Shown here: positions 1,781 through 64,000 of the stretch, in pieces
Layout: every line of letters starts with the position of its first letter
Position numbering within the stretch: the stretch's first letter is position 1
Origin: Dactylorhiza incarnata
Taxonomy: Eukaryota; Streptophyta; Magnoliopsida; Asparagales; Orchidaceae
Reading direction: 5' to 3'
NCBI GenBank assembly: GCA_033032865.1
Contig: JAWHQI010000185.1
Span: 5,022,001-5,086,000 of the forward strand
DNA: 64,000 bases
Translations under genes and position numbers: made by a program
Notes under the pieces: model-generated
The model's input: only the letters and a program-made list of their open reading frames with translations
The model's database searches: none
Told to the model about the DNA's origin: nothing

Positions 1781-3397
1781 TGATGGCGCAGATCTCACAC
1801 ACCGCTATAGGCGGTAGCTCGACTGCGACATGAAACGGCAGTGTACCGATCATTCAAGTAATATAAAACGAGGAGTAATCCCCGAGTATCGAATCTCAAA
1901 GTAACACAGTAAGGTGGAGTTTATTATCGAGGAAGGACTTGAGATTGAAGTCCTTTCGAGCGGATGGATGCGGAAACGGGGATTTTGGAATGTGGAAAAT
2001 AAAGAGAAAATGCTATGACTACTCCTATGCAATGCCTCTATGCAATGCTTCGCTCGGCAGAATGGAGACTAGGCAGGACTTGAGCGCGCTGCGTCGCAAG
2101 GGAGGATGGACGAGTAGGCAGACGGAATCAAACTATGCAGGCCTTGAGCGCGCTGCTTTGAAGGGCGAGTGAATTACACGGGCCGCGATGCCACGCTTCG
2201 GTAGGTGGATGGACGAGTAGGCTAACAGAGTGAGGGTCGTAAGCACCTCTTCAACAAGCACGCCACTAGCAATTGCTAGTTCGACGACGAACGTGACGGC
2301 AGGATGGAGGATGGAATGGGGCGCACCTCAAGCAAATCAAACAACAAACATTTCACATAGACATGAAATATATAGAAATACAAACTAGTTTTAAGTGCAA
2401 CTTCATCTTAATACATAGATCTAACTACATACACATCAATAAGAGAAGAATAAGGCAAGAAATCGATCGAATCCGAAGTCTCATTGTAGATTCACAGTTG
2501 GAATCGCCGGGTTGTCAATCCGCGTCCAAGCTCGGTCCGCAACTACGTCCGGGGTAGAGAAAGCTGTCATTACTCTCCGATGAGCCCGTCTTCTTCATGT
2601 CACGATCCGGTAGAGTTTGCAAATTTCCTCTTGCTTGATGGTAATGGCGGCTAGGTCTTCCCTTGGAGCACTAGGATGAAGGAGGAGGCCGAGAGGAAGC
2701 TCCGGCTCAAGATTGGTGTGAAGAACAAGCCCGGAGCACATCCATATGGTGGGCGGCGATGGAGGGGCGAAAAACCTGCGGAAGGGGCGAAAACGGCGGA
2801 GCTGGGCGGAAGAAATGCGTCGATCCCGACCTAATTCGCGAGCAGGTCAATATATATGCGCTGGAATAAACAGTGCGCATGGTCATTGGCGCACGACCAG
2901 TGGTCATGCGCACTAGCATCCTGCGATCGTGCGCCTGCCTGGACGGAGCCTGCAAGGTAAGAAAATTATAAAATACAATGTTCGCACTACCAGTGGAGCA
3001 CGACCAGTGGTCGTGCGCGCTATCGTAAGTGGTCGTGCGATAAGGAAGATAGAACTCAGATTTCAGGGGGTAAGTGCGCACTATCAATGGCGCACAACAA
3101 GTGGTCGTGCGCAATAGAACCAGTGATCGTGCGCAGTGTTCCTGTACAGATTTGTACCGCGAACACCTGCACGACTCCTGCTCCAGCATACAACACTAAT
3201 CAAACCACTAAAAGTGACACTTAACCATGCATGAAAACTAATAATGAAGATAAACAAGAAATAACACCAAAACAGGCCTAGAGGTGCACATAGCATGGAA
3301 TAACAAATATGAGCTAAAACAGGGCTAAAGTGTAGTGCATAGACTAGAAAATCGGCTTAGATGAGTCCATATATGTGTATATAATTGGGACTCATCA
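1781..3397 (-). repeat. 5' LTR of element A
   Basis: 1617 bp with TGATG...CATCA ends, defined by alignment with the two LTRs of element G and by the primer site 6 bp beyond its inner end. The minus-strand TATA position (about 2850-2858) reads as an AT run rather than the clean TATAAAT of G. U3 carries an array of GCGCACGACCA/TGGTCGTGCGC inverted repeats. In the R/U5 part, degenerate repeats of a GGCGGATGGACGAGTAGGC-like unit occur at about 2040-2230. Confidence 0.9.
2872..3175 (-). repeat. Palindrome array in U3 of element A LTR
   Basis: Repeated inverted repeats with arms GCGCACGACCA and TGGTCGTGCGC, for example 2889-2911 and about 2997-3019, plus half-sites. The array ends in a second conserved stem with arms GTGTTCC and GGAACAC-like (about 3140-3170). 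In sense orientation it lies just upstream of the TATA position. Several CG-to-TG/CA changes degrade arms here compared with G. Confidence 0.8.
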
Positions 3398-3409
3398 AGT
3401 ATACTGCGC

Positions 3410-3754
3410 GTGAAAGACCTCAATGAAAAGAAATCAGAGTTTCATGCGTCGGCCTCTCAATCCAAATCTGAGATTAGAAGAAACAAGAGGAAGTTTAAGT
3501 CTGGGGAAGCGGCTCACTTCAATGTGTCGGGAGCAACGAATGCACATGGCCCTGTTGTATGTTTCACTTGCAGAAAGGTGGGACACAAAGCACGTGTGTG
3601 TCAAAGTGGTCCCCCGAGATCGGAAAACCGAGCGATGGACTATACTCGTGCTGCGGGTCATGCGGAAAAGGGCAAAGCTATGGAGTCTTCTGTTTCCCAG
3701 CACATTCCGACCCAACCGAGAGTTTACTCGCTTGGCCAGCAAGAAATCGTATGA
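3410..3754 (+). pseudogene. Gag C-terminus of chromovirus T (zinc knuckle)
   Basis: An open stretch of 114 residues with one CCHC knuckle, CFTCRKVGHKARVC, in a basic Ser-rich context, ending in PRVYSLGQQE. That is the junction typical of Tekay/Del elements just before the protease. The N-terminal capsid part is absent because element A interrupts the gene at 3397. In the family this domain binds genomic RNA during particle assembly. Downstream the protease frame (about 3880-3960, ALFDTRTSRSFF-like) contains stops. Confidence 0.8.
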
Positions 3755-3779
3755 CAAACTGATGTCGTTACAGGTATGA

Positions 3780-4117
3780 ATTAGAAATTAGCTTTTACGG
3801 CTATACGTGATTTATACTTTTGTGCGACCTTATGCTTATTCGCGTGCAATTAGGCTTTGTCTTAATTTTCAAATACCCGGCGAGAGCTCTTTTCGATACG
3901 AGAACATCACGCTCCTTTTTTGTCTAGGAGTTCGTGTTATGAATCAGAGTGCCACTTACCTCAGCCAAGGATAGATTGGAGGTAATTTTGCCCAATGTGT
4001 CTCGAATGAGCGCGGATAGGAGAAACGATGAAAAGGTTCGAAGATGTTCTTCAAATTATTGAAGACTTCAGAGCCTAAGCTCAATTTTGGTGTTGTCCTG
4101 GTAGTAGCGGACTGAGC
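3780..4117 (+). pseudogene. Decayed protease to RT-start region of T
   Basis: No long frame is open. A protease-like ALFDT stretch near 3885-3915 is followed quickly by stops and then by sequence resembling the start of RT. The interval is far shorter than the several hundred residues normally between the protease motif and the RT palm, so an internal deletion is inferred. Exact breakpoints are not visible by eye. Confidence 0.55.
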
Positions 4118-4476
4118 TGACCGAGAAGAACCGTTATCCGATTCCAAGAATCGATGACTTATTCGACCAACTGGTTGGGTCGACAGTATACTCGAAGCTA
4201 GACTTAAGGTCCGACTATTATCAGCTTCGTACACGGGATTGTGACATTCCAAAGACAGCGTTCAGTACCCGCTTTGGGCACTATGAGTTCACGGTTATGC
4301 CGTTCGGTCTGTCTAATGCACCGTTGGTATTCATGGACTTAATGAATGGAACGTTCCGAGAGTATTTGGATCAATTTGTGATCATCTTCATCGACGACAT
4401 TTTGGTATACTCTCAGTTAGAGGAGGAGCATGTAGAGCATCTGCACGCAGTTTGGAGCACCCTGAGGAGGAGTCAA
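4118..4476 (+). pseudogene. Reverse transcriptase (5' part) of chromovirus T
   Basis: Open frame reading [18 protein letters not shown], then a [13 protein letters not shown] motif, [13 protein letters not shown] and the catalytic FIDDILVYS. These are RT fingers/palm motifs of chromoviruses, with both aspartates of the active site present. The frame is cut at 4476 by element B and continues at 31508. In the family this enzyme copies element RNA into DNA in the particle. The conserved NRYP start lacks upstream RT residues, so the enzyme is not functional here. Confidence 0.88.
4472..4476. other. Target-site duplication GTCAA (left of B)
   Basis: GTCAA directly precedes TGATG of the B LTR; the identical 5 bp follow the other end at 31503-31507. 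This proves that everything between is one insertion event plus later nested ones. Confidence 0.93.
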
Positions 4477-4661
4477 TGATGAGTAGTATTTATCCGTATT
4501 TTAATTATAGTATTTAGTTTACTTTTAATTTAAAATTGCAAATATTATTTATATTTTAGTTTAAAATCACTTCTTTTATAATTTCTATTCTAAATGTAGT
4601 TTTACTTTTGTTTTGCAGATTTTCTAGTGTTTTTGGACAAATTCCATAGTACACGCCCTCA

Positions 4662-5254
4662 GTCACGCCCGTGACCAAGGGCGTGTAACCTAAAGATCTG
4701 CGTTTGACAAAAACCGAGCTGAGTTCGACGAATCCGCCACCGCACCGCAAGTCACGCCCCAGGTCACGCCCGTGACCCAAAGTCACGCCCGTGACCAAGG
4801 GCGTGTAAACATAGAATCTTCCCAGCGGGATGCCGTCGAGACGTGGAGATGCTGTCGAGGAGTTGACCCAAAGTCATGCCCATGACCAAGGGCGTGTAAA
4901 CATAGAATCTTCCCAGCGGGCTGCCGTCGAGACGTGGAGATGCTGTCGAGGAGTTGACCCAAGTCACGCCCGTGACCAAGGAGTCACGCCCGTGACTTCC
5001 CGCGTGATCTCTGCTCCCTGCCGCGCCGAATTCAAGCCCATGCCGCGCCGAATTCAAGCCCATGCCGCGCCGAATTCAAGCCCATGCCGCATTGATGAAG
5101 CCGTCCAAGTACACGCCTGTAACCCAAGTTACACGGGCGTGTAATGTACGAATTTCTCCCGCCGTCACGCAAATTCCACGCCACTGTCAGATCAAATGTC
5201 AGTAATGTTTACATGCCCTAGGTCACGCCCGTGACCCTAGGTCACGCCCGTGAC
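4662..5254 (+). repeat. Array of GTCACGCCCGTGAC dyads in U3 of B
   Basis: At least seven copies of a 14-bp inverted repeat (arms GTCACG/CGTGAC, 2-nt centre) at about 4662, 4763, 4782, 4963, 4983, 5222 and 5241, usually followed by an AAGGGCGTG half-site. The last copy is about 30 bp upstream of the TATA box. The same motif fills the 3' LTR (14994-15215 and 30610-30955). Confidence 0.9.
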
Positions 5255-5282
5255 CGAGGGCGTGTAACTTGATATTTTTGCC

Positions 5283-5289
5283 TATAAAT
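5283..5289 (+). promoter_or_regulatory. TATA box of B 5' LTR
   Basis: TATAAAT in GCCTATAAATTCAGAGG, perfectly kept in the 3' LTR at 30975-30981. Position at the end of the palindrome array fits the U3 promoter; transcription should start about 25-35 bp downstream. Confidence 0.75.
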
Positions 5290-5818
5290 TCAGAGGCTCT
5301 CCCTTGAGTTGATAGTTCAGAAATTTGGAGAGGGGAGTTACTGTTAGAGCTGTTAGTTAACTTTTTTAATGCTTTTTCATGTCTTTCAATTTCATGTTCT
5401 CTTTCTTTTCAATTCATATAACGTGCTAGTTCCTATTTCTATGCAATAGTTAGTTAAAGCTAGTAGCCTTAATTATCCTAGCTTTGTAATCTTATTTAAA
5501 GAGTTGTAATAGCTTTTCATTTCAATGAAAGTTGTCATAGTTTTCTTTACCTCTCTTTCTTCATAATGATTTTCCTTCTTGCAATTTGTCTTTTTTTTTT
5601 AGTTTAGTAAAACAACCCTCAAAAATCGTTCGATAAGATAATGGTGATTTTCCTCGAATTAGAAGTAATCAACGTGCCCCGTGGAATACGACCTTGGTAT
5701 TTCTAAATATCCTATACTATAGACAATAAGGTACACTTGCCTTATTCGGATATAGTTTTGGAGAAAATCTTCAAACCTTCTCTTAATTTCAAAACACGAA
5801 ATTTTTATATCAAGTTTT

Positions 5819-7880: not shown

Positions 7881-7934
7881 TGTTAGAACCTAGTCTTAAT
7901 TTGGATTAGGATCCCAACTCAAATAGGGGGAGAT

Positions 7935-9750
7935 TGTTGGAACCTTAGGTTTGAATTGAGTTAGGATCCACCTTTAATGTCTAAATTTCTATCATAACAC
8001 ATTGTATAACTTAGACCAAATCCCATTAAGAAAGAAGGCTGAAAAGAGATATAATTAATAGGTTGAAAAACAAGAGAAAGATAAAATTTACATATGTTCT
8101 CTGCGTTCGACGAACATCCATCTGCGTTCGACGAATGGTGCCCTGTGGTCGACGAATGGTATTCATTCTACGCTCAACGAATTCCAGCGATTCAGCATTC
8201 GACGATCCCGTCTCAGCGGTTCAGCGTTCGACGATCCCGTCTCAGCGGTTCAACTGTCGACGAACAGATTATCTCAGCGGTCGACGAACAAACCCCGTAT
8301 CAGCGGTCGACGAAATCCTGCGTTCGACGAACTCAAGTCTGCGTTCGACGAACAGCTCAATATTTAGCGGTCGACGATCCAGCCAGTCTCTGCGATCGAT
8401 GAAAAGTTGAGTTCGATGATCTCCAGTCTGTGTTCGATGAATATTCAGCAGATGTTCAGAACAGTGAATCAAATGTTCAGGTCGACGAATCAAATGATGA
8501 GGTCGACGAACCTGAAGCTCAGCTCGACAAATTATCTGCAGCATTCTTTTATAACATTCAGCTCGACTAAAATATTATTTATATGCTGTCCGATTTATTT
8601 ATAAAGCAATATTTATTATTTATATATATATTGCTGGTTTAACATTACAGCCGTTGAAGCATTAAATGATAGAGACATTGCAGCAAAGCCAAATACGGCG
8701 CAAAGCTAAAGACGGCAAGTTTTGTCTGCTCGAGGATCTGCGAAATAAAAGAGACATTACTTCTTTCCTTGTCGGGCAAGAAATCAAAACAGCCCAGGAA
8801 AGAGGACAACTTCTTTATACGACATCAGGAGACAACTCATCAATATAGCAGCACAGAAAAAGAGAAGAAGGCTGTAGAGAAAAATATATAGCAGATTATA
8901 TACAGCTATTTTCTCTCGACAGATTACATATACAGAACATATTGCTGTATAGAATATAGACAGGATATATTATATTTGCTGTACAGGAAAAGAAAGAGGA
9001 AGAAAAACAGAGGAGCAAAAAGAAGAAGCCGATCAAAATATATATCTTCTTTTTTCCTAACCCTTTTTCTTTGCAGATCATATACAACCCGAGACACCAA
9101 ACTATATCAATTGCTCAGGGATCAAAACTGCAAGAAGAAGAAAAGAGGATTTGCAATCTAGAGAAGGAGCTCCATCCACAAGCTGTCATCAAACTAAATC
9201 AGACAGGGGGAGCTTTCTTCAACATCATCATGAAGATCCAAACACAACATCTCATCAGGATCATCAAGAGTCTTCTTAGAAAGAGAAGAACAATATATCT
9301 TTTCCCTTTCTCCTTCCCATCTTGTAAAGGGTTATAACTCCCTTCAAAAGTTAACTCCCGGTGACAGGGCACCTTAGCAAAAACCTGCATCTTGGTTTTG
9401 AGCACCTGATCAAAAGCTCTATGGTGTGTGGACACCTTATCAAAATCACCTTGGTGTGAGGGCACCTGATCAAACCTCCTAGTGGATCCTACCAAGTGTG
9501 GTAGAAGAGTAGACGTACCCAGGTTATTGGGGAACTACTATAAAATTCCTTGTGTCTTCTGTGCTGTGAATTTCTGTGTTTTGTTGTTGTGCTGATTTCT
9601 TTATTTGTTATTATTTAGTTTTTACAAATCACTCTATACACATATACTTATATCCGTATTTTTAATTCCGCAAATAAAACTAAGGGAAAAAGTTTTAATA
9701 CTCTATTCACCCCCCTCTAGAGTTAATTTAAGATATAACCTCTCCTTTCA
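7935..9750 (+). repeat. LTR of element H
   Basis: 1816 bp copia-type LTR starting TGTTGGAACC. U3 carries a TTCGACGAA array (8098-8575); a TATA box (TATAAAG, 8600-8606) follows about 25 bp later. Near 9370-9485 there are three to four copies of a GCACCTGATCAAA-containing unit of about 38 bp. Nothing coding is supported. Confidence 0.8.
8098..8575 (+). repeat. TTCGACGAA array in U3 of H
   Basis: Roughly 20 occurrences of GTTCGACGAA or GGTCGACGAA, 15-35 bp apart, with mutated forms TTCGATGAA and TCGACAAA toward the 3' end. Spacers are short and variable (often ATCCCGTCTCAGCG). The array ends immediately before the TATA box. Confidence 0.88.
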
Positions 9751-9755
9751 AAATC
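9751..9755. other. Target-site duplication AAATC (right of H)
   Basis: Second copy of the H target; pol of B continues in frame directly after it. Confidence 0.9.
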
Positions 9756-14803: not shown

Positions 14804-15236
14804 TGATGAGTAGTATTTATGCGTATTTTAATTACAGTATTTAGTTTAGTTTTAATTTAAAATTGCAAATATTATTTATATTTTAGTTTAAAATCACTTC
14901 TTTTATAATTTCTATTCTAAATGTAGTTTTGCTTTTGTTTTGCAGATTTTCTGGTGTTTTTGAACAAATTCCATAGTACACGCCCTCAGTCACGCCCGTG
15001 ACCAAGGGCGTGTAACCTAAAGATCTGCGTTTGACGAAAACCGAGCTGAGTTCGACGAATCCACCGCCGCACCACAAGTCACGCCCCATGTCACGCCCGT
15101 GACCCAAAGTCACGCCCATGACCAAGGGCGTGTAAACATAGAATCTTCCCAGCGGGCTGCCGTCGAGACGTGGAGATGTTGTCGAGGAGTTGACCCAAAG
15201 TCACGCCCGTGACGAAGGGCGTATAAACATAGAATC
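14804..15236 (+). repeat. 3' LTR of B, first part
   Basis: 433 bp matching the start of the LTR at 4477, interrupted at GAATC (15232-15236) by element C. It carries the GTCACGCCCGTGAC dyads (for example near 14994). Confidence 0.92.
15232..15236. other. Target-site duplication GAATC (left of C)
   Basis: GAATC precedes TGTTGGATC of C and is repeated at 30550-30554, where the B LTR continues. Confidence 0.92.
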
Positions 15237-16410
15237 TGTTGGATCTTGTGGCGCCCTTAGAGGGGGGGGGGGGGGGGTGAATAAGGGCCTTTTTAAATTA
15301 TGATTTTTTACTTAAGAATTTTTAAAACAAATTTTGCTTTTCTAAAAATCACTTATAAAAATTTACAAACTATGAAATTTTTAAATTAGATCAAACACAA
15401 ATTTCTAAGTTAAAGATTAAGCAACCAAATTTGCAATTAAAGAAAAGGCATAATATTTTAATCATGAAATTCTCATACAATAAAAATGATCTTAACAATG
15501 CTTAAGATCAAGGCATAAATAAGATAATAAACTTTTGACAATTTTTGTTTACCAATCCTTCTCCCAAGGATCGGAGGGCTATCACTTGTCTTTCCCTAGA
15601 CCAAGCCCAAGCCTATCCTCTAGATATTCCTAAGATCTAGACGTAGCACACAAAACCACGATTTCCCACCAAGCCGTGCAAGGACTTGGACGCTCCGCAC
15701 AAGGAAGCGATTTTCCCCTAAGCCACGCAAGGACTTAGACGTCACGCACAAGGAGACGATTTCCCTACCAATACAAAGTGAAATGTATATAAATGAAAAT
15801 ACAAAATAAAATGAAGAACTCCCTAGAAATTCAGATCTCTGAAAGGAAGGTTGAAGCCTCGAGATGATCGTTGATGTAGAAGCGCGTCCGATCTCGTCTT
15901 CAATTTCAAACCTTCTCAGCACAAATGGGAGTTCTTGAGGTTCTGGAGCTCTCTGGTTCGTATGCACTCAGGAAAGGACTTGGAATTCTCAAAGCTCTGG
16001 AATGCATGAACGAAACGAGCCAATATATAGATTTTCACTGTCGCCTGGGCGACATCACTGTCGGAATTCCGACAGCGCTAAACTGCCGCTCGTAGTGCTG
16101 TCGTGCGGGCAGTTACTGTAACTTCCGAGCTGTCGCCTGGGCGACATCGCTGTCGGAATTTTGACAGCGCAAAACTGCCGTTCGTCGTGTTGTCGTGCGG
16201 GAAGTTGTTGTAACTTCTCTGCTGTCGCCTGGGCGACATTAGCTGTCGGAAAATTACGACATCGAAATTTTCATACACTCAAATTGAGCTCCAGCAGAAT
16301 TGTGAACATCTCATACCTGTTACCTGCACACCATTAATAAAAATAGAATCAAATACAAATGGGACTTTGTTATTATCAAACCGGAAGAGTGCGAAACGCA
16401 TGCTCCAACA
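15237..16410 (-). repeat. 3' LTR of element C
   Basis: 1174 bp, TGTTGG...CCAACA. The plus-strand start carries a G16 run (15262-15277), the C-run of the copia TATTCACCCCCC signature expanded. U3 holds three units of about 95 bp, each with TGTCGCCTGGGCGACA (16039-16054, 16131-16146, 16223-16238). Open frames inside it (for example 15620-15967) recur in the other LTR only because the LTRs are copies; they are not supported genes. Confidence 0.92.
16039..16270 (-). repeat. TGTCGCC/GGCGACA palindrome units in U3 of C (3' LTR)
   Basis: Three tandem units of about 92 bp. Each holds the 16-bp dyad TGTCGCCTGGGCGACA (7-bp arms) followed by a second dyad of the form CTGTCGGAATTCCGACAG. The same three units lie in the other LTR at 30178-30400. 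In sense direction they are directly upstream of the TATA sequence (about 16022-16030 here). Confidence 0.9.
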
Positions 16411-16424
16411 ATCTCCCCCTTTTG
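16411..16424 (-). other. Polypurine tract of C
   Basis: Minus strand reads CAAAAGGGGGAGAT directly before the 3' LTR start (TGTTGGAGC), fixing the orientation. Confidence 0.88.
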
Positions 16425-16799
16425 ATAATAACAAATCCGTATAAAAAGAAATCATGTCCATTTAGGTTGTTGATTTTAACATATGGTGTGTGCAAAAAAT
16501 AACATGATATATTCCTCTTAAAAGTAATCTCCCCCTAGATGAATGCTCCCCCTAAATGAATGCTCCCCCTAAATGTTATAGTAAATTGAAATAATGTATT
16601 GTTTAGGTGGAATATTTAGGTGTAATAGTTCTTTGATTTCTTGAATATACTTATAATTCTCCCCCTTTTGATATTAGCAAAAGGTAATATGAAATGAATT
16701 AGTAGTTCTTAAGGGAAGAGATAAGACGGAGAAAATAAGAGTAAGCGGAAGCACTTATTGGGAAAATGATTGAAGGTCTTGAAGTAATAGTGAAAGAAA

Positions 16800-17140
16800 T
16801 TCTCATTCGTCGGAATTCGTCGGAAGTTCTCGAGAACATTCGACGAATTGACTTAGCCATTGAAAAATACTGAACAAAGCTTGAAAACTGTCTTCTGTTT
16901 TCATTCGTCGGGAGTTCTCGAGAACATTCGACAAATTGACTTAGCCGCACATTTTCCTTCACAAGTCTGTCTTTTTGACTTCTGTCTGCGTTCGTCGATA
17001 TTCGTCGGGAGTTCATGAGAACAGTCGACGAATAGACTTAGCCGCAGAAATTTCTTCTTTAAACCAGAAATTTGGCTTCTGTCTGGATTCGTCGAGATTC
17101 ATCGGAACTTCACGAGACATCTCGACGAATTGACTTAGCA
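16800..17140 (-). repeat. Nested-palindrome tandem units (C internal 3' region)
   Basis: Four units. The best have outer arms ATTCGTCG/CGACGAAT and the perfect 12-bp palindrome GTTCTCGAGAAC between them (16826-16837, 16914-16925), followed by TTGACTTAGCC. Units three and four have decayed centres. The arm core TTCGACGAA equals the repeat in H, T and I. Confidence 0.85.
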
Positions 17141-18438: not shown

Positions 18439-18443
18439 CAAAT
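18439..18443. other. Target-site duplication CAAAT (left of D)
   Basis: CAAAT precedes TGTAACATCC; the second copy is at 24963-24967. Confidence 0.9.
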
Positions 18444-22768: not shown

Positions 22769-22820
22769 CCTAGTACCATTGCGAGCCCTTCACCGGGTAA
22801 CCCGCGAGAAGTCCAGGATT
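22769..22820 (+). repeat. Conserved block shared with Athila 3' region (copy in D)
   Basis: CCTAGTACCATTGCGAGCCC ... GCGAGAAGTCCAGGATT; aligns with 13603-13652 in B. It lies just upstream of the hairpin array. Confidence 0.8.
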
Positions 22821-22905
22821 CACCCCAAGCTTCTAAGATCAACTAAATTATAGACAAGACTAGCTAAGTAGGAGAACTGGACAAGCTAACATTCACCCCA
22901 ACCAT

Positions 22906-24962: not shown

Positions 24963-24967
24963 CAAAT
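24963..24967. other. Target-site duplication CAAAT (right of D)
   Basis: Second copy of the D target; AT-rich C sequence resumes after it. Confidence 0.9.
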
Positions 24968-29371: not shown

Positions 29372-30549
29372 TGTTGGATCTTGTGGCGCCCTTAGAGGGG
29401 GGGGGGGGGGGGGGTGAATAAGGGCCCTTTTAAATTATGATTTTTTACTTAAGAATTTTTAAAACAAATTTTGCTTTTCTAAAAATCACTTATAAAAATT
29501 TTACAAACTATGAAATTTTTAAATTAGATCAAACACAAATTTCTAAGTTAAAGATTAAGCAACCAAATTTGCAATTAAAGAAAAGGCATAATATTTTAAT
29601 CATGAAATTCTCATACAAATAAAAATGATCTTAACAATGCTTAAGATCAAGGCATAAATAAGATAATAAACTTTTGACAATTTTTGTTTACCAATCCTTC
29701 TCCCAAGGATCGGAAGGCTATCACTTGTCTTTCCCTAGACCAAGCCCAAGCCTATCCTCTAGATCTTCCCAAGATCTAGACGTAGCACACAAGGCCACGA
29801 TTTCCCACCAAGCCACGCAAGGACTTGGACGCTCCGCACAAGGAAGCGATTTTCCCCTAAGCCACGCAAGGACTTAGACGTCACGCACAAGGAGACGATT
29901 TCCCTACCAATACAAAGTGAAATGTATATAAATGAAAATACAAAATAAAATGAAGAACTCCCTAGAAATTCAGATCTCTGAAAGGAAGGTTGAAGACTCG
30001 AGATGATCGTTAATGTAGTAGCGCGCCCGATCTCGTCTTTAATTTCAAACCTTCTCAGCACAAATGGGAGTTCTTGAGGTTCTGGAGCTCTCTGGTTCGT
30101 ATGCACTCAGGAAAGGACTTGGAATTCTCAAAGCTCTGGAATGCATGAACGAAACGAGCCAATATATAGATTTTCACTGTCGCCTGGGCGACATCACTAT
30201 CAGAATTCCGACAGCGCTAAACTACCGCTCGTAGTGCTGTCGTGCGGGCAGTTACTGTAACTTCCGAGCTGTCGCCTGGGCGACATCGCTGTCGGAATTT
30301 CGACAGCGCAAAACTGCCGTTCGTCGTGTTGTCATGCAGGAAGTTGTTGTAACTTCTCTGCTGTCGCCTGGGCGACATTAGCTATCGGAAAATTCCGACA
30401 TGGAAATTTTCATACACTCAAATTGAGCTCCAGCAGAATTTTGAATATCTCATACCTGTTACCTGCACACCATTAATAAAAATAGAATCAAATACAAATG
30501 GGACTTTGTTATTATCAAACCGGAAGAGTGCGAAACGCATGCTCCAACA
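29372..30549 (-). repeat. 5' LTR of element C
   Basis: 1178 bp, ends as in the other LTR. The G run is 18 long here (29397-29414) against 16 in the other copy. Minus-strand TATA sequence at 30161-30169; palindrome units at 30178-30400 lie upstream of it. Confidence 0.92.
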
Positions 30550-30554
30550 GAATC
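30550..30554. other. Target-site duplication GAATC (right of C)
   Basis: Second copy of the C target, followed by B LTR sequence. Confidence 0.92.
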
Positions 30555-31502
30555 TTCCGAGCGGGCTGCCGTCGAGACGTGGAGATGCTGTCGAGGAGTT
30601 GATCCAAAGTCACGCCCGTGACCAAGGGCGTGTAAACATAGAATCTTCCCAGCGAGCTGCCGTCGAGATGTGGAGATGCTGTCGAGGAGTTGACCCAAGT
30701 CACCCCCGTGACCAAGGAGTTACGCCCGTGACTTCCCGCGTGATCCCTGCTCCCTGCCGCGCCGAATTCAAGCCCATGCTGCATTGATGAAGCCACCCAA
30801 GTACACGCCCGTGACCCAAGTTACACGAGTGTGTAATGTCCGAATTTCTCCCGACGTCACGCAAAGTCCACGCCACTGTCAGATCAAATGTCAGCAATGT
30901 TTACACGCCCTAGGTCACGCCCGTGACCCTTGGTCACGCCCGTGACCGAGGGCGTGTAACTTGAAATTTTTGCCTATAAATTCAGAGGCTCTCCCTTGAG
31001 TTGATAGTTCAGAAATTTGGAGAGGGGAGTTACTGTTAGAGGTGTTAGTTAACTTTTTCAATGCTTTTTCATGTCTTTCAATTTCATGTTCTCTTTCTTT
31101 TCAATTCATGTAATGTGCTAGTTCCTATTTCTATGCAATAGTTAGTTAAAGCTTGTAGCCTTAATTATCCTAGCTTTGTAATCTTGTTTAAAGAGTTGTA
31201 ATAGCTTTTCATTTCAATGAAAGTTGGCATAGTTTTCTTTACCACTCTTTCTTCATAGTGATTTTCCTTCTTGCAATTTGTCTTTTTTTTAGTTTAGTAA
31301 AACAACCCTCAAAAATCGTTCGATAAGATAACGGTGATTTTCCTCGAAGTAGAAGTAATCAACGTGCCCCGTGGAATATGACCTTGGTATTTCGAAATAT
31401 CCTATACTATAGACGATAAGGTACACTTGCCTTATTCAGATATAGTTTTGGAGAAAATCTTCAAACGTTCGCTTAATTTCAAAACACGAAATTTCTATAT
31501 CA
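30555..31502 (+). repeat. 3' LTR of B, second part
   Basis: Continues from 15236 with the tandem units, GTCACGCCCGTGAC dyads and TATA box at 30975-30981. It ends ATATCA, followed by the GTCAA duplication. Together with 14804-15236 it gives about 1381 bp against 1336 bp for the 5' LTR. Confidence 0.92.
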
Positions 31503-32536: not shown

Positions 32537-33754
32537 TGATGCAGGCCAACGGATTTTGAATCAATCTACGCTAGCGCACCATCACGACAAACCAAATAAG
32601 TCAAAAGGAAATCAGCCCAAAAACAAACCAATACGAAGGTATACCAAATCTCGTGAATCAAATGAGAAATCAAGGGTTAACAACCCGATTTCGCACGCGT
32701 TCAAGAGACCTACCCGATGCAAAGTTATCGAAGAAATCCGGACAATGTTAATACCTTAAGCTCAGATTTTAGAACGCACAATCAATTCAATAATCAGGAT
32801 AAACATTCAATCCATAAAATCCACCTTAGTCTCACAGCAAAGTAGAAGAATCACACCAACGAAAGGGGAAGGAATTACCCAGAAACTCAGCGAGGGAAAC
32901 GCACAAATAGACGGGGGTGGAAACATCGTCCTTCCATGGAATCCACCAGGTTCGCACCCAATGATGATTTCCAGCCGATCTTCCTCGGAACCGTGGGGGA
33001 AAGGAGCCAGGAGGGGCGTTGGCCTTAATCCAACTTCTGGACTCCAAACTTCAGGGTGGGGGGGTGGTCGGAGAGGGCCGTCGGTGCAGAGAAGGTGGGC
33101 AGATACGGCAACGGGGCGCTGACGGTGGTCGGCCGAAGCTGGGCGCGGGAGCGGCGCAGATGGAGATCGGGCTGAAGTAGTTAGGTTGATCAGAAATGAG
33201 GGAGGAGAGGTAAGAGGAGGAGAGGGACGGCCGGACTCTACCGGAGAAGGGGAGGGAGGCGGCGCGCACGCCAGGAGGGGAGGAGAAGTTCCCGATCGGG
33301 AAGAGGGGGGAAGGCAGCCGTCGGCTGTAGAGAGAAATTAGGGTAGTTCTTTTTTTTTGTCAAAAATCTGCTCTCTTTCTCATTACCATAAAACATATAT
33401 ATAGAAAATTACAAGGGATCATGGCCACACACCTAACAAGATTAAATCTAGGCCATCCACACAAAACTGAATTAAAATACAGAAATTAAAATACTGAAAT
33501 TAAATGCAGGAATTTAAAATGCAGTAATAAAATTGTTCTTGAATTTTGGTGGAGATTTGACGCGGCGTTGGCGGAGGATGTCGCGGCAAACTTCAACTTC
33601 ACGCTTGGCAAACATTTCACGGCAATGTCCATCAACATCTTCAAATGTAAGGTGGCGGAGGCGGTCAGAATATTGCGTCGAGTCTGCGTCGCCACCGAAC
33701 CGGTCACGAACACGAACATGACCACGAGCATATGGCGGGACGTCGTCGCCATCA
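32537..33754 (-). repeat. 3' LTR of element F
   Basis: 1218 bp, TGATG...CATCA. GC-rich leader (32830-33330) and a minus-strand TATA sequence (CTATATATATG, about 33395-33405). The gag frame from the internal region runs about 240 bp into its U3 before stopping at 33514. No palindrome array like those of A, B, C, D or H is seen. Confidence 0.9.
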
Positions 33755-35144
33755 ATTCTCCCCCACTCAAAATCACTCATCACCGATGAGTGGCCCGGGA
33801 GAGGGAACCAATAGAACGCAGCACCATCAGGTAGCAACACTGACCCGAGCATCCGAGTAGTAGTGCGGGCATCACTCTTCCAAGATAACCTGTCAGGCAT
33901 AAGAACAGCAGCAAAACTCTCGAGGAACCTCGAGAGGGGGTCAGTCCGAAGAAAAACAACTAAAATCTCACCATCTGGTGGACGAACCAATGAACCCACG
34001 TGGAAGGTAGACACGACAGAACTCGCACTCTCCAACCCAAGAGAGGATGAAGTGGGAGAGAGAAACGACAGAGAATGCCACTCGGGTGGAAAATAGACAT
34101 GAAATGATAAATCCGAAAAATTGAAAAGAGGTGAAACACCCCATGTAACGTGAAAATCCGGAATAAAAGCATCAAATCCGAAATTCCTCATAACCATGAA
34201 CGGGTCGGCGCCCCTAAATGTTAATTCATTGACGGAGTCCCTAGACAACTGTTTGGGTGCTGACCAGACTAACTCCAAATCACTAGTTCTAGCAGCGGGC
34301 GCACTCGGATTTGAACGGAACTGCATGCGAGGAATACTAAGGGTGTTGAAAAGACTGAGCACAAAATCTAACAACTCAACAAAAGATGTCCGACGGGGCA
34401 AGGCCAACGGAGGGGCCAGAGACATAGGCAAAACAAACTGACTAGGATGAGGCACTACCGAAGGGAGATCCACTTCGATGACACTTGGGATAGCCAACTC
34501 CTCAACAATGCGACGTGTTTTCTCAATAACGACCTTGCCCTCAGCGATCGACTCGATCAAAGGCACTAACTCAGAAGCATCAGACACATCTAAAGCCAGT
34601 TCCGAGGGAAGATCTTCTTCCAAATCACTAGGGTAACCCATCTCCTCATCGTCGCTAAGATCGTCCTTAATAAAGACGTCGCCGTCAGCGGGAGGCTCAG
34701 TCAAGGACACAAACACATTGTTGTAAGAAGACTCAATAACTCTATCAGGAGATTTGTGGAACGAACGAGTCCTAGACTTGTGAGCTAGGTGCTTCTCAAT
34801 CTCCAATGCGGCGCTATAACAAGTGTCTAAGTCAGAGTGACAGTAGCGGAGGAGTTTACCTTGAATGTCGGGATTGAGCCCCCTACGAAACCGTGAGAGG
34901 GTGACCATAGGCATTTCCAAGACATCACACCTAACCAACATGTCCTCAAAAAGGCGCATGTATTCTTCAATAGACCTATTCCCCTGTTTAAGGGTAGCAT
35001 GAACTGGGGTGCCGGATTTCTCGTGTGAGGAGAAGTGCGTGCACGATTAGTGTCCCTATGGCATGGAGGCGGCGTTGGGTGGTGTTTAGCCATAATTTTG
35101 GCATACAACGAGTCTAACCGGGAAACATAAACATCATGAGCCAT
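33514..35144 (-). pseudogene. Truncated Ty3-type Gag of element F reading into the 3' LTR
   Basis: A start at 35144 (MAHDVYVSRLDSLYAK) leads after about 30 residues to a frame change near 35040. The main frame (open from about 35046, Met at 34959) reads THFSSHEKSGTPVHATLKQG, then the gag-domain end EYMRLFEDMLVRCDVLEM and LSRFRRGLNPDIQGKL. A long acidic then hydrophobic/Pro-rich region follows with no zinc knuckle and no protease. The last about 80 residues (from 33754 to the stop at 33514) lie in the LTR. Much of the N-terminal capsid is missing. Whether the frame change is an error or a programmed shift cannot be told. Confidence 0.72.
33755..33768 (-). other. Polypurine tract of F
   Basis: Minus strand GAGTGGGGGAGAAT adjoining the 3' LTR start; inside the gag-like frame. 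Confidence 0.85.
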
Positions 35145-37835: not shown

Positions 37836-37879
37836 TGTAACACCCCAATCTGTTGAAGCAGATTTGAGCTGCTAGTAGC

Positions 37880-38130
37880 AGTTCGTCCAATGGCCTCCTG
37901 GGTTCGACGAACGGCCGCCTGGCTATGTTCGACGAACGGCCGCATGGCTGCGTTCGGCGAATGGCCGCCTGGCTGCGTTCGCTGAACGACCGCCTGGCTG
38001 CGTTCGACGAACGACCTCCTAGGCGCGTTTGACGAACGGCCGCCAGGGCCCATTCGACGAACGGCCAGGGGCCCATTCGACGAACGGCAGCCTGTTCGAC
38101 GAATGCCTGTCAGTTCATCGAACGCTGTCC
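37880..38130 (+). repeat. TTCGACGAAC(GGCCGC) array in T LTR
   Basis: About ten copies of TTCGACGAACGGCCGC or close variants (TTCGGCGAATGGCCGC, TTCGCTGAACGACCGC), spaced 20-30 bp, the spacers rich in CTGGCTGCG. Confidence 0.88.
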
Positions 38131-39231
38131 AGTTCGGCGATATTTGCGTTACAGACCCGTGATTTGTGATCGTGGGCGTCAAATCCAAAGGTGTTAGATC
38201 CAATGCTTAGGATTTATTCCGGGACTTCATATGGTTTGACCAGAGGAGTGTTTATCCTCTTTATTTTCTAAATCTTATCTCTCTTTAAGTTTGAGAAAGA
38301 AGAAAGTCGGGGAGGAAGAAGAAGGCATCTTCTGCCATTGACGAAGCTCCGAAGCTCCGAATCGCGAGCCATTTTTAGATCTGGAAATAACAGCCCATTG
38401 CGGTTCTTTCTATTCGAGTGAAATCTCAGATCTATGGCGCCGAAGAAAGCTCCAAGGGTAACGATCCTTCCTCCCGATCTTAGGATGTGTTTTTGTCCTC
38501 TCATTCCATTTTCTATGCTTACATGAGGAATCCCTTTCACCAAATGGGTGAAGTGTAGGATTTCCTCTAGTTCTTCGGAACTCCGGGTTGATTGTGTCTG
38601 TCCCCGGCATATTGCATGTAGAAATCCGGAATTCGTGCAGATTTAGGCACTTTGTGTGAAGCCTATTCGTGGCCGTGAGCCCGGATCGGTGATGCTTGAA
38701 TTGCGACGTTGCATTTAGGATAAGCCTAGAATGCATGCCGGAGAATGTCTCCGTGAGGTTTTCTATCGTATTGCGGGACTTGAATTTTAGGTGCCTTTTG
38801 AGGGCCTAAAGGAAGCCCCTTGCTTGGGTGGTGGAATGCAAACCTCCACCGCTAGATTTGAAGAGGAGTGGCCTTGTACCTCCTTCTTGGCTATTATTTG
38901 TGAAGTCCAAGTCCGCGTGGAATGATTGGATGCGTAGCTTAATTTTGTGGGCACTTGCTGTGCTAAACCCTTACGGGCCGAGGTGAAGCCGTACCCGCGT
39001 CGTGCGATAGATTGCGACAGTTAGAGCACGGGCAAAGCTGAACCGAACCCGTTTCCATGCTGATCGATAAGAGGTCATTACTTCTTGTAAACCCGTGTGA
39101 TCATGGGAGAGGCCGTAAAAGGTGTTTACCTAGACAGGCCTGAAGCTCTTATTCCCACCTAAGGTTACTTAACTTAGAGTGGCATTGGTGCTCGTGAAGG
39201 AGTACCTTGGATGTATGCCTTGTGAGCATGG

Positions 39232-39236
39232 AGCGT
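39232..39236. other. Target-site duplication AGCGT (left of G)
   Basis: AGCGT precedes TGATGCGC; the repeat is at 45570-45574. Confidence 0.93.
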
Positions 39237-40802
39237 TGATGCGCAAATCCTGCACGCCGCTATAGGCGGTAGCGAGACTGCGATCTGAATGACAGTGAAC
39301 CGGTCGTTGTCAAGTAATAATATGAGGAAGTAAATCCCCAAGTATCGAATCTCTCAAGGAACACAGTAAGGTGGAGTTAGGTTTCGAGGAAGGACTTGAG
39401 ATCGAAGTCCTTTCGAGCGGATGGATGCGGAAACGGGGGTTTTGGATTGTGGACAATAAAGAGAAAATATTACAACTACTCCTATGCAATGCCGCTATGC
39501 AATGCTTCGCTCGGCGGGATGGAAGACTACGTAGGCCTTGAACGCGCTACTTCGTAAGGGCGGATGGACGAGTAGGCAAACGGATCGAACTATGCAGGCC
39601 TTGAGCGCGCTGCTTCGTTAGGCGGGATGGAATACACGGGCCGCTATGCCACGCTTCGGTAGGCGGATGGGCGAGTAGGCTAACGGAATGAGGGTCACCG
39701 GCACCTCTTCGCAAAGCACACCACTAACAATTGTTAGGGCGGCACAACACAACGGCAGAATGGAAATTAGATGGGGGCGCACCTCATACACATATGAACA
39801 AAAAATATAACTTCACATAGACATGAAATTAAGATTACAAGCACGATTCATAGTGTTCATCATCAAGATATAGAAGAATCTAACCTAAACAATCATCAAC
39901 ATAAAGAAGGAAAAAGAGAGTAAAGGAGTCGACCACATCCGAAGCCTTGCCGAAGATTCACGGTTGGAATCGCTGGGTTGTCAATCCGCGTCCAAGCTCG
40001 GTCTTCAACTGCATCCGAGGTAGAGGAGGGCTGTCACTTCCTCCCAATGGCTTGTCTTCTTCGTGTCACGATCCAATCTCCTCCGATACACGATCTCCTT
40101 GCTCGATGTTGGCGATCTTTGGGCTAGAAACCTCTCCTTGGAGCTCAAGGATGATGGAGGAGGCCTAGGGGGGCGGAAAACCAGTGGAAAGGGCGAAAAC
40201 GGCGGACTGGACGGAGGAAATGCGGAAGTCCCGACCTAATTCGCGAGCAGGTCAATTTATAGGCGCTGGAATAAACAGTGCGCACGATCATTGGCGCACG
40301 ACCAGTGGTCGTGCGCACTAGAATCCTGTGATCGTGCGCCTGACTGGACGGAGCCTGCAAGGGAAGAAAATTATAAAATTCAATGTTCGCACGACCAGTG
40401 GCGCACGACCAATGGTCGTGCGCACTATCGTAAGTGGTCGTGCGATAAGCCAAACAGAACTCATAAAATGGGCGTTAAGTGCGCACGATCAGTGGCGCAC
40501 GACCGGTGGTCGTGCGCGATAGAACCAGTGATCGTGCACAGTGTTCCTGTACAGATTTGTACCGGGAACACCTGCACGACTCATGTTCCAGCATAACCAC
40601 GAATCCTGCCACTGAAAGTGGCACTTAACGATGCATGAAAACTACTAGAGAAGAAAAGCAAGAAACAACACCAAAAACGGGCCTAGAGGTGCACTTAGCA
40701 AGGAGTATCAAATATGAGTGAAAACATGTCTAAAGTGAAGTGCATAGACTAGAAAACCGGCCCAGATGAGTCCATAAATGTGTATATATTTGGGACTCAT
40801 CA
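39237..40802 (-). repeat. 3' LTR of element G
   Basis: 1566 bp, TGATG...CATCA. Minus-strand TATA box TATAAAT at 40255-40261. U3 palindrome array 40275-40560. R/U5 has repeats of an ATGGACGAGTAGGCAAACGG-like unit (39500-39690). Confidence 0.93.
40275..40590 (-). repeat. Palindrome array in U3 of G (3' LTR)
   Basis: Three near-perfect 23-bp dyads at 40294-40316, 40401-40423 and 40495-40517 (arms GCGCACGACCA and TGGTCGTGCGC, one central base), with half-sites between them. They lie about 30-260 bp upstream of the TATA box in sense direction. A further stem with arms GTGTTCC and GGGAACAC lies at about 40540-40570. The 5' LTR has the same set at 45062-45084, 45168-45190 and 45262-45284. Confidence 0.92.
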
Positions 40803-43999: not shown

Positions 44000-44005
44000 A
44001 AAACT

Positions 44006-45569
44006 TGATGCGCAAATCCTGCACGCCACTATAGGCGGTAGCGAGACTGCGATCCGAACGGCAGTGAACCGGTCGTTGTCAAGTAATAATATGAGGAAGT
44101 AAATCCCCAAGTATCGAATCTCTCAAGGAACATAGTAAGGTGGAGTTAGGTTTCGAGGAAGGACTTGAGATCGAAGTCCTTTCGAGCGGATGGATGCGGA
44201 AATGGGGGTTTTGGATTGTGGACAATAAAGAGAAAATATTACAACTACTCCTATGCAATGCCGCTATGCAATGCTTCGCTCGGCGGGATGGAAGACTACG
44301 TAGGCCTTGAACGCGCTACTTCGTAAGGGCGGATGGACGAGTAGGCAAACGGATCGAACTATGCAGGCCTTGAGCGCGCTGCTTCGTTAGGCGGGATGGA
44401 ATACACGGGCCGCTATGCCACGCTTCGGTAGGCGGATGGGCGATTAGGCTAACGGAATGAGGGTCACCGGCACCTCTTCGCAAAGCACACCACTAACAAT
44501 TGTTAGGGCGGCACAACACAACGGCGGAATGGAAATTAGATGGGGGCGCACCTCATACACATATGAACAAAAAATATAACTTCACATAGACATGAAATTA
44601 AGATTACAAGCACGATTCATAGTGTTCATCATCAAGATATAGAAGAATCTAACCTAAACAATCATCAACATAAAGAAGGAAAAAGAGAGTAAAGGAGTCG
44701 ACCACATCCGAAGCCTTGCCGAAGATTCACGGTTGGAATCGCTGGGTTGTCAATCCGCGTCCAAGCTCGGTCTTCAACTGCGTCCGAGGTAGAGGAGGGC
44801 TGTCACTTCCTCCCAATGGCTCGTCTTCTTCGTGTCACGATCCAATCTCCTCCGATACACGATCTCCTTGCTCGATGTTGGCGATCTTTGGGCTAGAAAC
44901 CTCTCCTTGGAGCTCAAGTATGATGGAGGAGGCCTAGGGGGCGGAAAACCAGTGGAAAGGGAGAAAACGGCGGACTGGACGGAGGAAATGCGGAAGTCCC
45001 GACCTAATTCGCGAGCAGGTCAATTTATAGGCGCTGGAATAAACAGTGCGCACGATCATTGGCGCACGACCAGTGGTTGTGCGCACTAGAATCCTGTGAT
45101 CGTGCGCCTGCTGGACGGAGCCTACAAGGGAAGAAAATTATAAAATACAATGTTCGCACGACCAGTGGCGCACGACCAATGGTCGTGCGCACTATCGTAA
45201 GTGGTCGTACGATAAGCCAAACAGAACTCATAAAATGGGCGTTAAGTGCGCACGATCAGTGGCGCACGACCAGTGGTCGTGCGCGATAGAACCAGTGATC
45301 GTGCGCAGTGTTCCTGTACATATTTGTACCGGGAACACCTGCACGACTCCTGTTCCAGCATAACCACGAATCCTGCCACTGAAAGTGGCACTTAACGATG
45401 CATGAAAACTACTAGAGAAGAAAAACAAGAAACAACACCAAAAACGGGCCTAGAGGTGCACTTAGCAAGGAGTATCAAATATGTGTGAAAACATGTCTAA
45501 AGTGAAGTGCATAGACTAGAAAACCGGCCCAGATGAGTCCATAAATGTGTATATATTTGGGACTCATTA
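44006..45569 (-). repeat. 5' LTR of element G
   Basis: 1564 bp; few differences from the 3' LTR (for example GCGATTAGGC for GCGAGTAGGC near 44441; ...CATTA for ...CATCA at the outer plus-strand end). TATA box at 45023-45029 on minus. Confidence 0.93.
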
Positions 45570-45574
45570 AGCGT
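45570..45574. other. Target-site duplication AGCGT (right of G)
   Basis: Second copy of the G target, then the T LTR continues. Confidence 0.93.
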
Positions 45575-47746: not shown

Positions 47747-48347
47747 TGTTGGAGCTGTTGGATGAAGGATTGTATTAGCCTTACACATATTGGATATGAG
47801 TGGAGGACCAATTTTGTAACTGATTGGAGTTGCGTCGAGAATGTCTCGATGGAACATATAGTACTCGACGTTGCGCCGAGATTGCCTCGACGTTGCGTCG
47901 AATTGTCAAGTTGCACTCGACGGTGTGTCGAGATTGTCTCGATGTTACGTTAAATTGTATTGACGATTCAAGTTGTACTCGACGGTGCGTCGAGATTGTC
48001 TAGACAGTACGTCAAATTGTATTGACGATACAAGTTGTACTCGACGGTGCGTCGAGATTGTCTCAACGTTGCATCTAATTGTATTGACGATACAAGTTAT
48101 ACTCGATGGTGCATCAAGATTGTCTCGACGTTGCGTCGAATTGTCTCGACGATACATGTTGCGCTCCAATTATATCTCTGGTTTGTGGATAATGTGTTTT
48201 ATGCCCTGAGTATAAAACAAGAATTGATTAGGTTTCCAAATAGTGAGAGACCTTTTTGTAAAAAGCCTATCAGAGCCGAAGCGAAAGGGTTCCGCATAGG
48301 TCTCAACATTCCACGAGATCATTGTCGTCGCCTCTCCCTGGCGTCGG
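47747..48347 (+). mobile_element. Element M: copia-like LTR fragment with hairpin array
   Basis: Starts TGTTGGAGCTGTTGGATG, a copia-style LTR start. A tandem array (47835-48165) is followed by TATAAAA at 48211-48217. Cut at 48347 by R1. The LTR end, primer site and coding region are not found. Assignment rests on the ends and layout only. Confidence 0.55.
47835..48165 (+). repeat. CTCGAC/GTCGAG hairpin array in M
   Basis: Units of about 62 bp with CTCGACGGTGCGTCGAG (47978-47994, 48040-48056 and decayed copies) then GATTGTCTCGACGTTGCG and TTGACGATACAAGTTGTA. The array ends about 45 bp before the TATA box. Confidence 0.85.
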
Positions 48348-48721
48348 TGTAAGATCCCCCTCCCGCACTAGGAGAGTTACCAGATCTTATGTCCAGAACC
48401 TCCGCCTTACGGTGACGCCAACACACGAGTTAGCTGTCTCCGCAAGACACCGATCCTGCCGGTAAGAATGATCAACCAGCCCAACAAGAGATAAGAAGAA
48501 AAACTAGGTAAAATAAACCAAGTCCACAATCACACACATATACATATGCCAAAATAGTATACAAGTCCATCAATGAGTACAAAAGAAAGAGTAAGGGCTT
48601 ATGCCCAGTACATGTCCGAATGAAAAGACAACAAAATAAAATCTCTCTCTCTACATATCTATGCGGAAGCTAAACACTCTCATCATTTGCACCTGTCTCG
48701 TGGTAGAAGTAATGCGCGGCA
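48348..48721 (-). repeat. R1: LTR end fragment of the D/R family (minus)
   Basis: Begins TGTAAGATCCCCC on plus, that is, an LTR ending GGGGGATCTTACA on minus. Shares CCAGAACC(T/G)CCGCCTTACGG and GATCCTGCCGG with R2, R3, R4 and, reversed, with the 3' end of D. Cut at 48721 by R2; the remainder is not found in the window. Confidence 0.75.
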
Positions 48722-50929: not shown

Positions 50930-51265
50930 TAATTCTAACCAAGGTTTATAGAAATCAAGCCAATCGCCCGCAGGACTAAACCGGTCCTTCAAATATAATA
51001 CCCGAGCCTACCGCTCGCTAGACTACACCAGTCTTATAATTAAACCATGATCCTACCGCTCGCTAGACTACACCAGTCTTATATTTAAACTACGAGCCTA
51101 CCGCTCGCTAGACTACACCAGTCTTATATTTAAACTACGAGCCTACCACTCTCTAGACTACACCAGTCTTATATTTAAACTATGAGCCTACCGCTCGCTG
51201 GACTATCCCAGTCCTTCCTTATAACCCGAGCATACCGCTCGCAGGATTATCCCAGTCCTTCTTAT
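50930..51265 (-). repeat. Double-hairpin tandem array in R3
   Basis: Six to seven units of about 43 bp: CGAGCCTACCGCTCG followed by AGACTACACCAGTCT. Reverse-complement of the D array at 22906-23380. Confidence 0.88.
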
Positions 51266-51360
51266 AAAATGTTTCGATCTGGGATGGAAGTTAACTTGTC
51301 AAGTTCTCCTACTTAACTAGTCTTGTCTATAATTTAGTTGATCTTAGAAGCTTTAGGGTT

Positions 51361-62700: not shown

Positions 62701-63164
62701 CCAACCAAATCAGTCCCAATTGGGCTGAGAAGTTTACCAGGGTCATGTGATAACCCTAAGAAGTACCCACCAAAATTTGGAGGGCATTGGAGGTCATTTG
62801 ACCCAATAATTATTTAATATTTAATTTATGAAATTATTACAAAAACCTTAGAAAAAAGTTCTCCTAAAATTCCCATCTTTGGGTATGAAGTGTGGGTAGG
62901 TGTAAATAGCCTATTTTTCAATTTTCAAGTCAATCCCATAAACCAATCAAAAATTATTCAAGAAATGGTGGCTGTCCCACACTAGGGACCAGTCCCACCA
63001 AAATGGACCTACAGGGAGCTACAGAACTCCTTTTGGGGTTAAATTAATTTTAAAATAAATTAGACTTCAAGGGCTACAACTTTGGTGTTGACCGCTTTTT
63101 CATTTTAGGGGTTCTACTATTTTTAATAATTAAAATGAAATACTGTAGGAAGTTTGACAAAATG
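59799..63164 (-). repeat. R4: 5' LTR of a minus-strand D/R-family element, cut by I
   Basis: At least 3.4 kb of LTR with TGTAAGACCCC at its inner end. It contains the 13-bp-stem hairpin (60507-60547), a decayed double-hairpin region (60950-61110), the conserved block (61211-61262) and AT-rich DNA without genes. Interrupted at 63164 by element I, so its length is unknown. Confidence 0.8.
61211..61262 (-). repeat. Conserved block shared with Athila 3' region (copy in R4)
   Basis: Minus strand CCTAGTACCGTAGCGAGCCC ... CTCGGGAAGTCCAAGATT; the closest of the LTR copies to that in B (13603-13652). Confidence 0.82.
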
Positions 63165-64000
63165 TGTTGGAACAATTCTCTGCGTTCGACGAAATCCAAT
63201 TTGCGTTCGACGAAATCTGTTCTGCGTTCGACGAACGCCGTGATTCAGTGCGTTCGACAAAATCCAATCTGCGTTCGATGAAATCCGACCTGTGTTCGAT
63301 GAAATATGTTCTGCGTTCGACGAACGCCGTGCTTCAGTTCGACGAAATCAGTTCTCCAGCCAGTTCAGCAGATTACCTCTCCGTTCGACGAACTCCAGAT
63401 TCAGTTCGACAAATTAATTTGTTCGGCAAATTAATTCCGTTTGACGAACTCCGGGGTCAGCTCGATGATCTCAACTATCAGTTCGGTGAATTAGTTCCAT
63501 TCGACGAACTTCGGGTTCAGTTCGTCGAACTCAACTATTAGTTCGGTGAATTAATTCCGTTTGACGAACTCCGGGTTCAGTTCGATGAACTCAACTATCA
63601 GTTCGAAAAATACCTGTGTGTGTCCGACGAATGAATTCGGTTCGATGAACCCCGGGTTCAGTTCGACGAACTCTGGCTACAGCTCGACGAATTTCTTCTA
63701 CATCAGATCGACGAATAAATGAAATAACGATATAACATAATCATTTAATATGAAGATCTTGCACAGATCTTAAAGCAGAACGGACGACATCCATTTGTCT
63801 TCTTCCTCTGGCCAACTGTTGAAGCCAGGAAAATCCTAGGCTCCAAAATTCGGACCAATGCAGCCGGAGGCTACTCGCCCAATAGTCCAACGAGATGACT
63901 TGGATGGAAATGATGAAGAAGCTAGAAGAACAACAAATTGGACCCCAGGTGCTGTGGCAGGGTGGTCCCACCACGTACCCGGAAGCTCAAGGGAGTCTTC
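63165..64000 (+). mobile_element. Element I: start of a copia-like LTR with TTCGACGAA array
   Basis: Starts TGTTGGAACA, like H, inside R4. A TTCGACGAA array fills 63180-63720, followed by an AT-rich stretch (GATATAACAT, a weak TATA candidate, about 63729) and unassigned sequence to the window edge. No coding motif. Confidence 0.6.
63180..63720 (+). repeat. TTCGACGAA array in I
   Basis: More than 20 copies of GTTCGACGAA and mutated forms (GTTCGATGAA, GTTCGGTGAA, TTTGACGAA), spaced 15-30 bp; the 3' half alternates with CTCAACTATCA. Confidence 0.88.

Follow-up and report, generated by a model that had tools for sequence, protein, structure and literature searches.

The closest described counterparts of the repeats treated here are the palindromic repeated-motif (RM) boxes that lie before the TATA box in the U3 region of Sireviruses, within the long terminal repeats (LTRs). 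In the part of the source available to us, these boxes are termed Sirevirus-specific among Ty1/copia elements, have a CGG-CCG core in 12 of 13 elements and are given no common binding factor, and the TATA box lies on average 37 bp after a CpG island (Bousios et al. 2010, PMC2829016). Excerpts of two maize studies describe palindromic structures in Sirevirus LTRs as hotspots of small interfering RNAs (PMC10760457, PMC5311732); one of them places the palindromic structure of maize in copia LTRs, sees no clear peak for Ty3, and states in general terms that cis-regions of transposable elements are often repeat arrays, at times palindromic (Martin et al. 2023, PMC10760457). In einkorn, QuinCent of RLG_Quinta is described, again in an excerpt, as an LTR segment common to a Ty3 and a copia family (PMC11302176). 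Here we analyse 64,000 nucleotides from Dactylorhiza incarnata (contig JAWHQI010000185.1, positions 5,022,001 to 5,086,000; hereafter the window), which self-comparison and reading of element ends show to be a nest of plant LTR retrotransposons within a 3.27-Gb genome. Several of its LTR families carry arrays of CpG-containing dyads in U3, for which promoter-proximal sites for predicted host DNA-binding proteins are the best-fitting and, on balance, a probable reading.

Dyad arrays in U3

Dyad cover was counted as bases in stems of at least 6 with loops of at most 12, and was compared with 200 dinucleotide shuffles per sequence for 12 LTR sequences from seven families. The arrays exceed chance in G, B, C and M: no shuffle out of 200 reached the U3 dyad cover of these seven LTR sequences (z of 7.0 and 5.7 for the 5' and 3' LTRs of G, 10.3 and 8.6 for B, 7.6 and 8.5 for C, and 7.5 for M). 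The named dyads sit where the initial annotation had placed them in A, G, B, C, H and M, and its expectation of a density above shuffled U3 was borne out in full for G, B, C and M only. The excess is weaker in the partly decayed A (z 2.2, matched by 8 of 200 shuffles), in D (2.2 for the 5' LTR, 5 of 200, and 2.0 for the 3' LTR, 11 of 200) and in H (2.6, 4 of 200), whose U3, for want of a TATA box, was ended arbitrarily at 700 bp. X8 has no U3 excess by the stem test (z -0.8, 171 of 200), because its sites have 4-bp arms, under the stem limit. The parts after the TATA box gave z between 0.0 and 2.1 in 11 of the 12 sequences and 3.0 in X8. In the window, the degenerate word TTCGWCGAA was counted 22 times; 60 shuffles gave 0.42 on average and 3 at most. 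The LTRs and arrays are as follows.

1786..3397, minus strand: A, an LTR of the A/G family; dyad array 2872-3135 with GCGCACGACCA half-sites, decayed in part
4477..5813, plus strand: B 5' LTR, Athila-type; GTCACG-CGTGAC dyads form an array at 4650-5267, with a single exact TTCGACGAA at 4724 and CTATAAATT at 5282
7881..9754, plus strand: X8, a Sirevirus-type LTR (from 7935) in the B protease, with target-site duplication AAATC; 19 TTCGACGAA-like units at 8106-8570, TATAAA at 8600; additional to the elements of the initial annotation
14804..15237, plus strand: B 3' LTR, part 1; array 14989-15213, broken by C
15238-30549, minus strand: C element
15238..16411, minus strand: C 3' LTR, Sirevirus-type; TGTCGCC..GGCGACA and TGTCGGAATTCCGACA dyads at 16039-16250, with CTATATATT about 10 bp downstream of the dyads in sense
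16412..16670, minus strand: polypurine-tract repeats of C; the inverted repeat at the junction has its arms at 16366-16380 and 16421-16435
16806..17136, minus strand: C linker array of TTCGWCGAA-like units and GTTCTCGAGAAC
29373..30549, minus strand: C 5' LTR, with its array at 30178-30400 and a TGGTATCAG-type primer-binding site (PBS) next in sense
30551..31502, plus strand: B 3' LTR, part 2; array 30609-30946, TATA box present
32537-36526, minus strand: D element, negative comparison family
32537..33755, minus strand: D 3' LTR, without a clear dyad array; the other LTR is at 35309-36526
37836..39236, resuming past G at 45571-46289, plus strand: H LTR, Ty3; array 37882-38122 of 11 units
39237..40801, minus strand: G 3' LTR; array 40277-40540
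44005..45570, minus strand: G 5' LTR; array 45045-45308 with half-sites in three blocks (<22<12>14>); CTATAAATT begins at 45030
47748..48400, plus strand: M, a presumed LTR fragment with uncertain boundaries; CTCGACG..CGTCGAG array 47829-48160, TATAAAA at 48211
59801 to about 63715, minus strand: K3; second TTCGACGAA array at 63185-63715

The G element is bounded by AGCGT on its flanks. C was inserted (15237/30550) among the dyads of the B 3' LTR array. In the C linker, TTCGTCG, the GTTCTCGAGAAC palindrome and CGACGAA are joined in long dyads with a repeat period of about 97 bp, and the linker word differs from the boxes of C's own LTR. In the X8 insert, a short extra copy of the LTR start and polypurine tract (7881-7968) precedes the LTR proper, and both lie inside a single AAATC duplication pair, which would fit an element that had already lost its internal region when it inserted or lost it in the process.

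A word shared by copia and Ty3 lineages

Among LTRs, the nine-letter word TTCGACGAA is found in X8 (copia), in the Athila-type B and, for Ty3, in H and probably K. Genome-wide it occurs 477,461 times, compared with 11,372 for TTCGAACGA, a control of the same dinucleotides, which is a 42-fold over-abundance, and it was found in 7 of 20 10-kb stretches picked without regard to the motif. It often has CTGCG before it, and its commonest spacing is 21 bp. This sharing suggests that different kinds of retrotransposon may use one common host DNA-binding protein. The motifs had earlier been described as private to unrelated families and gained repeatedly. The first two terms fail in part: A/G and B are alike in the type of PBS, in the ends of the LTR and in the sequence of the TATA box. 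The idea of repeated gain is only half right, because one motif is common to copia and Ty3 lineages.

The core is more conserved than either 7-bp flank in all seven arrays compared, a result biased upward by tiling that seeks the core and was run without a mismatch cut-off. This core conservation among units is a better sign of constraint than the persistence of CpG, which had been taken to hint at selection. The B LTR pair, 96% identical overall, has a CpG transition at 18 of 74 CpG columns, and the remaining pairs agree in direction; given that CpGs are decaying, their persistence fits recent insertion and gives no sign of selection.

The lineage of each family was judged from encoded proteins, LTR ends and PBS, in part through stretches from elsewhere in the genome that were compared with the window (labelled L0nn). 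B encodes Ty3 reverse transcriptase, RNase H and integrase (PF00078, PF17917, PF00665). Its PBS, TGGCACCGTTGCAGGGGA, stands just after the LTR, and A/G has TGGCGCCGTTGCCGGGGA in the equivalent place; we take both to match tRNA-Asp. A PBS a few bases past the LTR agrees with Athila, as described in the part of the source available (PMC1142308). A/G itself is only Athila-like by ends and PBS, because it has no recognisable Ty3 protein (a weak zinc knuckle, E 0.018, lies under the cut-off), and its frame has no similarity to the B gag. In the frame immediately upstream of the H LTR, which was tested for a chromodomain after integrase, there is an SH3_Tf2-1 match (9.4e-12) and a Chromo match (0.0087) below the curated cut-off. 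K is predicted to belong to Ty3: in L018, gag, protease and reverse transcriptase (PF03732, PF08284, PF00078, PF17917) lie downstream of an LTR collinear with K. X8 is likewise predicted to be copia: in L027 an X8-like LTR has a copia gag (PF14223, 1e-07) beyond it. X8 itself, a putative Sirevirus among the copia lineages, has a GGGGGAGAT|TGTTGG junction of polypurine tract and LTR with near-complementary GGATCC arms. More TCGACGA clusters, alike in sequence, occur at L027:8806-8929, past the copia gag frame and outside the first array, and at L030:1488-1625.

C looks like a Sirevirus in most structural features. Multiple polypurine tracts precede its 3' LTR (16412-16670, including 17-bp CTCCCCCTAAATGAATG units at 16529-16575), the junction inverted repeat has 15-nt arms that are 100% complementary, and palindromic boxes with a CGG-CCG core (TGTCGGAATTCCGACA, next to TGTCGCC..GGCGACA) lie in U3 ahead of the TATA box. 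Its two LTRs together hold six exact copies of TGTCGCCCAGGCGACA and four variants of the other dyad, where the Sirevirus criterion is at least eight of one box. The long C frame at 27750-29267 matched no retroelement family, and no copia pol frame was found among the frames scanned.

Arrays differ between close relatives. L017 has an LTR of the B family (79-90% identity where the two match), whose U3 holds ten TTCGACGAA units (at most one mismatch) and seven GTCACG dyads (at most three mismatches); by the same count the U3 of the B 5' LTR (B5) holds one and eight. Despite these differing arrays, TATAAA stands at 811 in L017 and 807 in B5. Arrays are therefore probably interchangeable, whereas the promoter frame stays fixed. 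In L028, about 4.3 kb of tandem CTCGACGAG units (718-5014, commonest spacing 17 bp) are followed by GTCACG dyads, a TATA box and a Ty3 gag-protease frame akin to that of B, an LTR array expanded to satellite size.

As to the origin of the sharing, rather than the function of the sites, TTCGACGAA may have spread by movement of array segments between LTR families (recombination, template switching or gene conversion) and not by separate gains, a possibility to which we give somewhat less than an even chance. More tentatively, several lineages of both superfamilies may have recruited a single host protein recognising TTCGACGAA as their upstream activator, either each on its own or by trading promoter modules. 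The site would thereby have reached about half a million copies, saturating the genome with sites for its own factor, while LTRs evolved by swapping arrays on a fixed frame.

Position before the TATA box and function

The distance from the final dyad base to the TATA box is 18 bp in A, 16-17 bp in G, 17-18 bp in B, 9-10 bp in C, 59 bp in M and 97 bp in D. The X8 array ends 29 bp before the TATA box if the last degenerate unit is counted, and 89 bp before it if the measurement starts at the final unit whose inner core is exact. For the array end first proposed at roughly 10-50 bp before the TATA box, the values are 9-18 bp in A/G, B and C and 50-70 bp in M; the H LTR has no recognisable TATA box.

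Between the end of the last GTCACG-CGTGAC dyad and CTATAAATT there are 27-28 bp in each of B5, L017, L028 and L021, although the asymmetric centre of the dyad reads CCC in two of them and GGG in the other two. Identity at -60..-15 is 0.87 between B5 and L028 and 0.83 between B5 and L021 (0.60 and 0.59 for shuffled sequence), whereas the other five stretches of these comparisons give 0.48-0.69 (shuffled, 0.57-0.65). B5 and L017 (identity 0.72-0.97) were counted as one because they are close relatives. Of the comparisons among the three diverged sequences that this leaves, most have the dyad as their most conserved stretch, with a weaker peak for L028-L021 (0.73), L017-L021 (0.75) and L017-L028 (0.76). 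This peak is a footprint of the dyad.

We think it probable that the arrays are promoter-proximal upstream regions of LTRs, made of repeated dyad-symmetric CpG-containing sites to which sequence-specific host proteins, probably dimers, would bind, and that binding would activate transcription. In several families the last site stands at a short fixed distance before the TATA box. Units are probably gained, lost and exchanged fast while the surrounding LTR persists, so that copies of one family can carry different mixes of sites, and the TTCGACGAA site recurs in both copia and Ty3 lineages of the host. Dimeric host factors had been proposed in the initial annotation, and sites of this kind fit best with the core conservation, the fixed TATA distance, the footprint and the few compensatory changes in the arrays.

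Several points weigh against protein sites. The array sites have no recognised factor. The sites show no helical phasing, and no CTATAWA was found within 160 bp downstream of the array in L014, L016, L018, L019 and L027. Identity between L017 and L028 at -400..-150 (0.74) is about equal to that at -60..-15 (0.76), and L021, an unclassified sequence, is at best a candidate LTR. Finally, when A is compared with G, the dyads have no significant advantage in conservation over the remainder of U3 (11/132 vs 52/407, p 0.21).

The main rival, which we regard as unlikely, is that the arrays act as RNA hairpins, with U3 palindromes in 3' LTR or read-through transcripts that fold, become small RNAs and serve silencing or element function. 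Mean folding z in 110-nt windows is -4.30 for the G 3' LTR, -4.31 for the G 5' LTR, -4.78 and -3.18 for the 5' and 3' LTRs of C, -3.69 for H, -2.52 for the C linker and -2.31 for M, and the arrays of G, B, C and H have folding windows at or below -40 kcal/mol. The two dyad types of C have common outer arms and paired inner differences, and maize Sireviruses offer a precedent, as far as the source was available (PMC10760457). The hairpin RNA of the initial annotation is thus possible for G, C, H and M, but it fails for X8, whose 19-unit array is without excess structure and is retained as words.

Least probable, indeed very unlikely, is that the arrays are functionless by-products of tandem duplication or slippage, the palindromes being just the units that expanded: the units are tandem and shift quickly in copy number (as in the CTCGACGAG expansion of L028), B and C have 91-bp and 92-bp tandem units, and several of seven sampled repeat pairs lack dyad excess, but cores outlast spacers in all seven arrays despite fast CpG decay, the same word recurs in lineages of both superfamilies, the distance to the TATA box is fixed, a footprint is seen, and 11 of the 12 post-TATA parts are free of excess.

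Tandem units of 44 bp at 22910-23346 and 51003-51267, in K-type (Ty3) LTR sequence, each hold a TATAA-like word and imperfect GACT..AGTC and GAGC..GCTC dyads, so dyad arrays also occur in a part of the LTR that may not be U3. In AT-rich sequence inside C, a 192-bp tandem repeat of 4.2 copies (21023-21839) is possibly part of a DNA transposon. Four tandem 45-bp units at 55998-56178 carry an imperfect ATCCGG..CCGGAT dyad.

Comparison with described systems

Tnt1 and ONSEN resemble the arrays here in carrying repeated host-factor sites in U3; to our knowledge, those sites belong to one family each and are not CpG-dyad arrays shared between families. They had been offered as the precedent in the initial annotation, and the Sirevirus RM boxes, as far as the source is available, are nearer (PMC2829016). 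Like QuinCent, the arrays involve an inverted-repeat LTR segment shared by a Ty3 and a copia family, but QuinCent is a 162-bp nucleosome-placing segment and not an array of short sites before a TATA box. Maize Sirevirus LTRs have in common with G, C, H and M a palindrome-rich cis-region with hairpin potential; unlike in maize, Ty3 LTRs here carry arrays, and the X8 array is without structure. Hairpins and protein sites, confounded in Sireviruses, are separable in this host because G, C and H combine an array with hairpin potential and X8 has kept the array alone.

The sharing of TTCGACGAA and its 42-fold over-abundance make a search for its host binding protein concrete, and if arrays swap on a fixed promoter frame, LTR families could switch host factor quickly. 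Our searches of open-licence literature turned up no description of comparable arrays in the Ty3 LTRs of plants.

With the Sirevirus RM boxes the arrays have in common the CpG palindromic repeats in U3, the TATA box shortly after them and the additional linker copies; in structure both C and X8 agree with them, and C belongs with the known Sirevirus cases. Unlike RM boxes, TTCGACGAA lacks the CGG-CCG core, and the arrays are also found in Ty3 LTRs (B; H, probably K) and in A/G, with its Athila-like ends. Three features extend past the Sirevirus cases: Ty3 LTRs built to this design, a single word common to both superfamilies in one host, and the swapping of arrays within a family.
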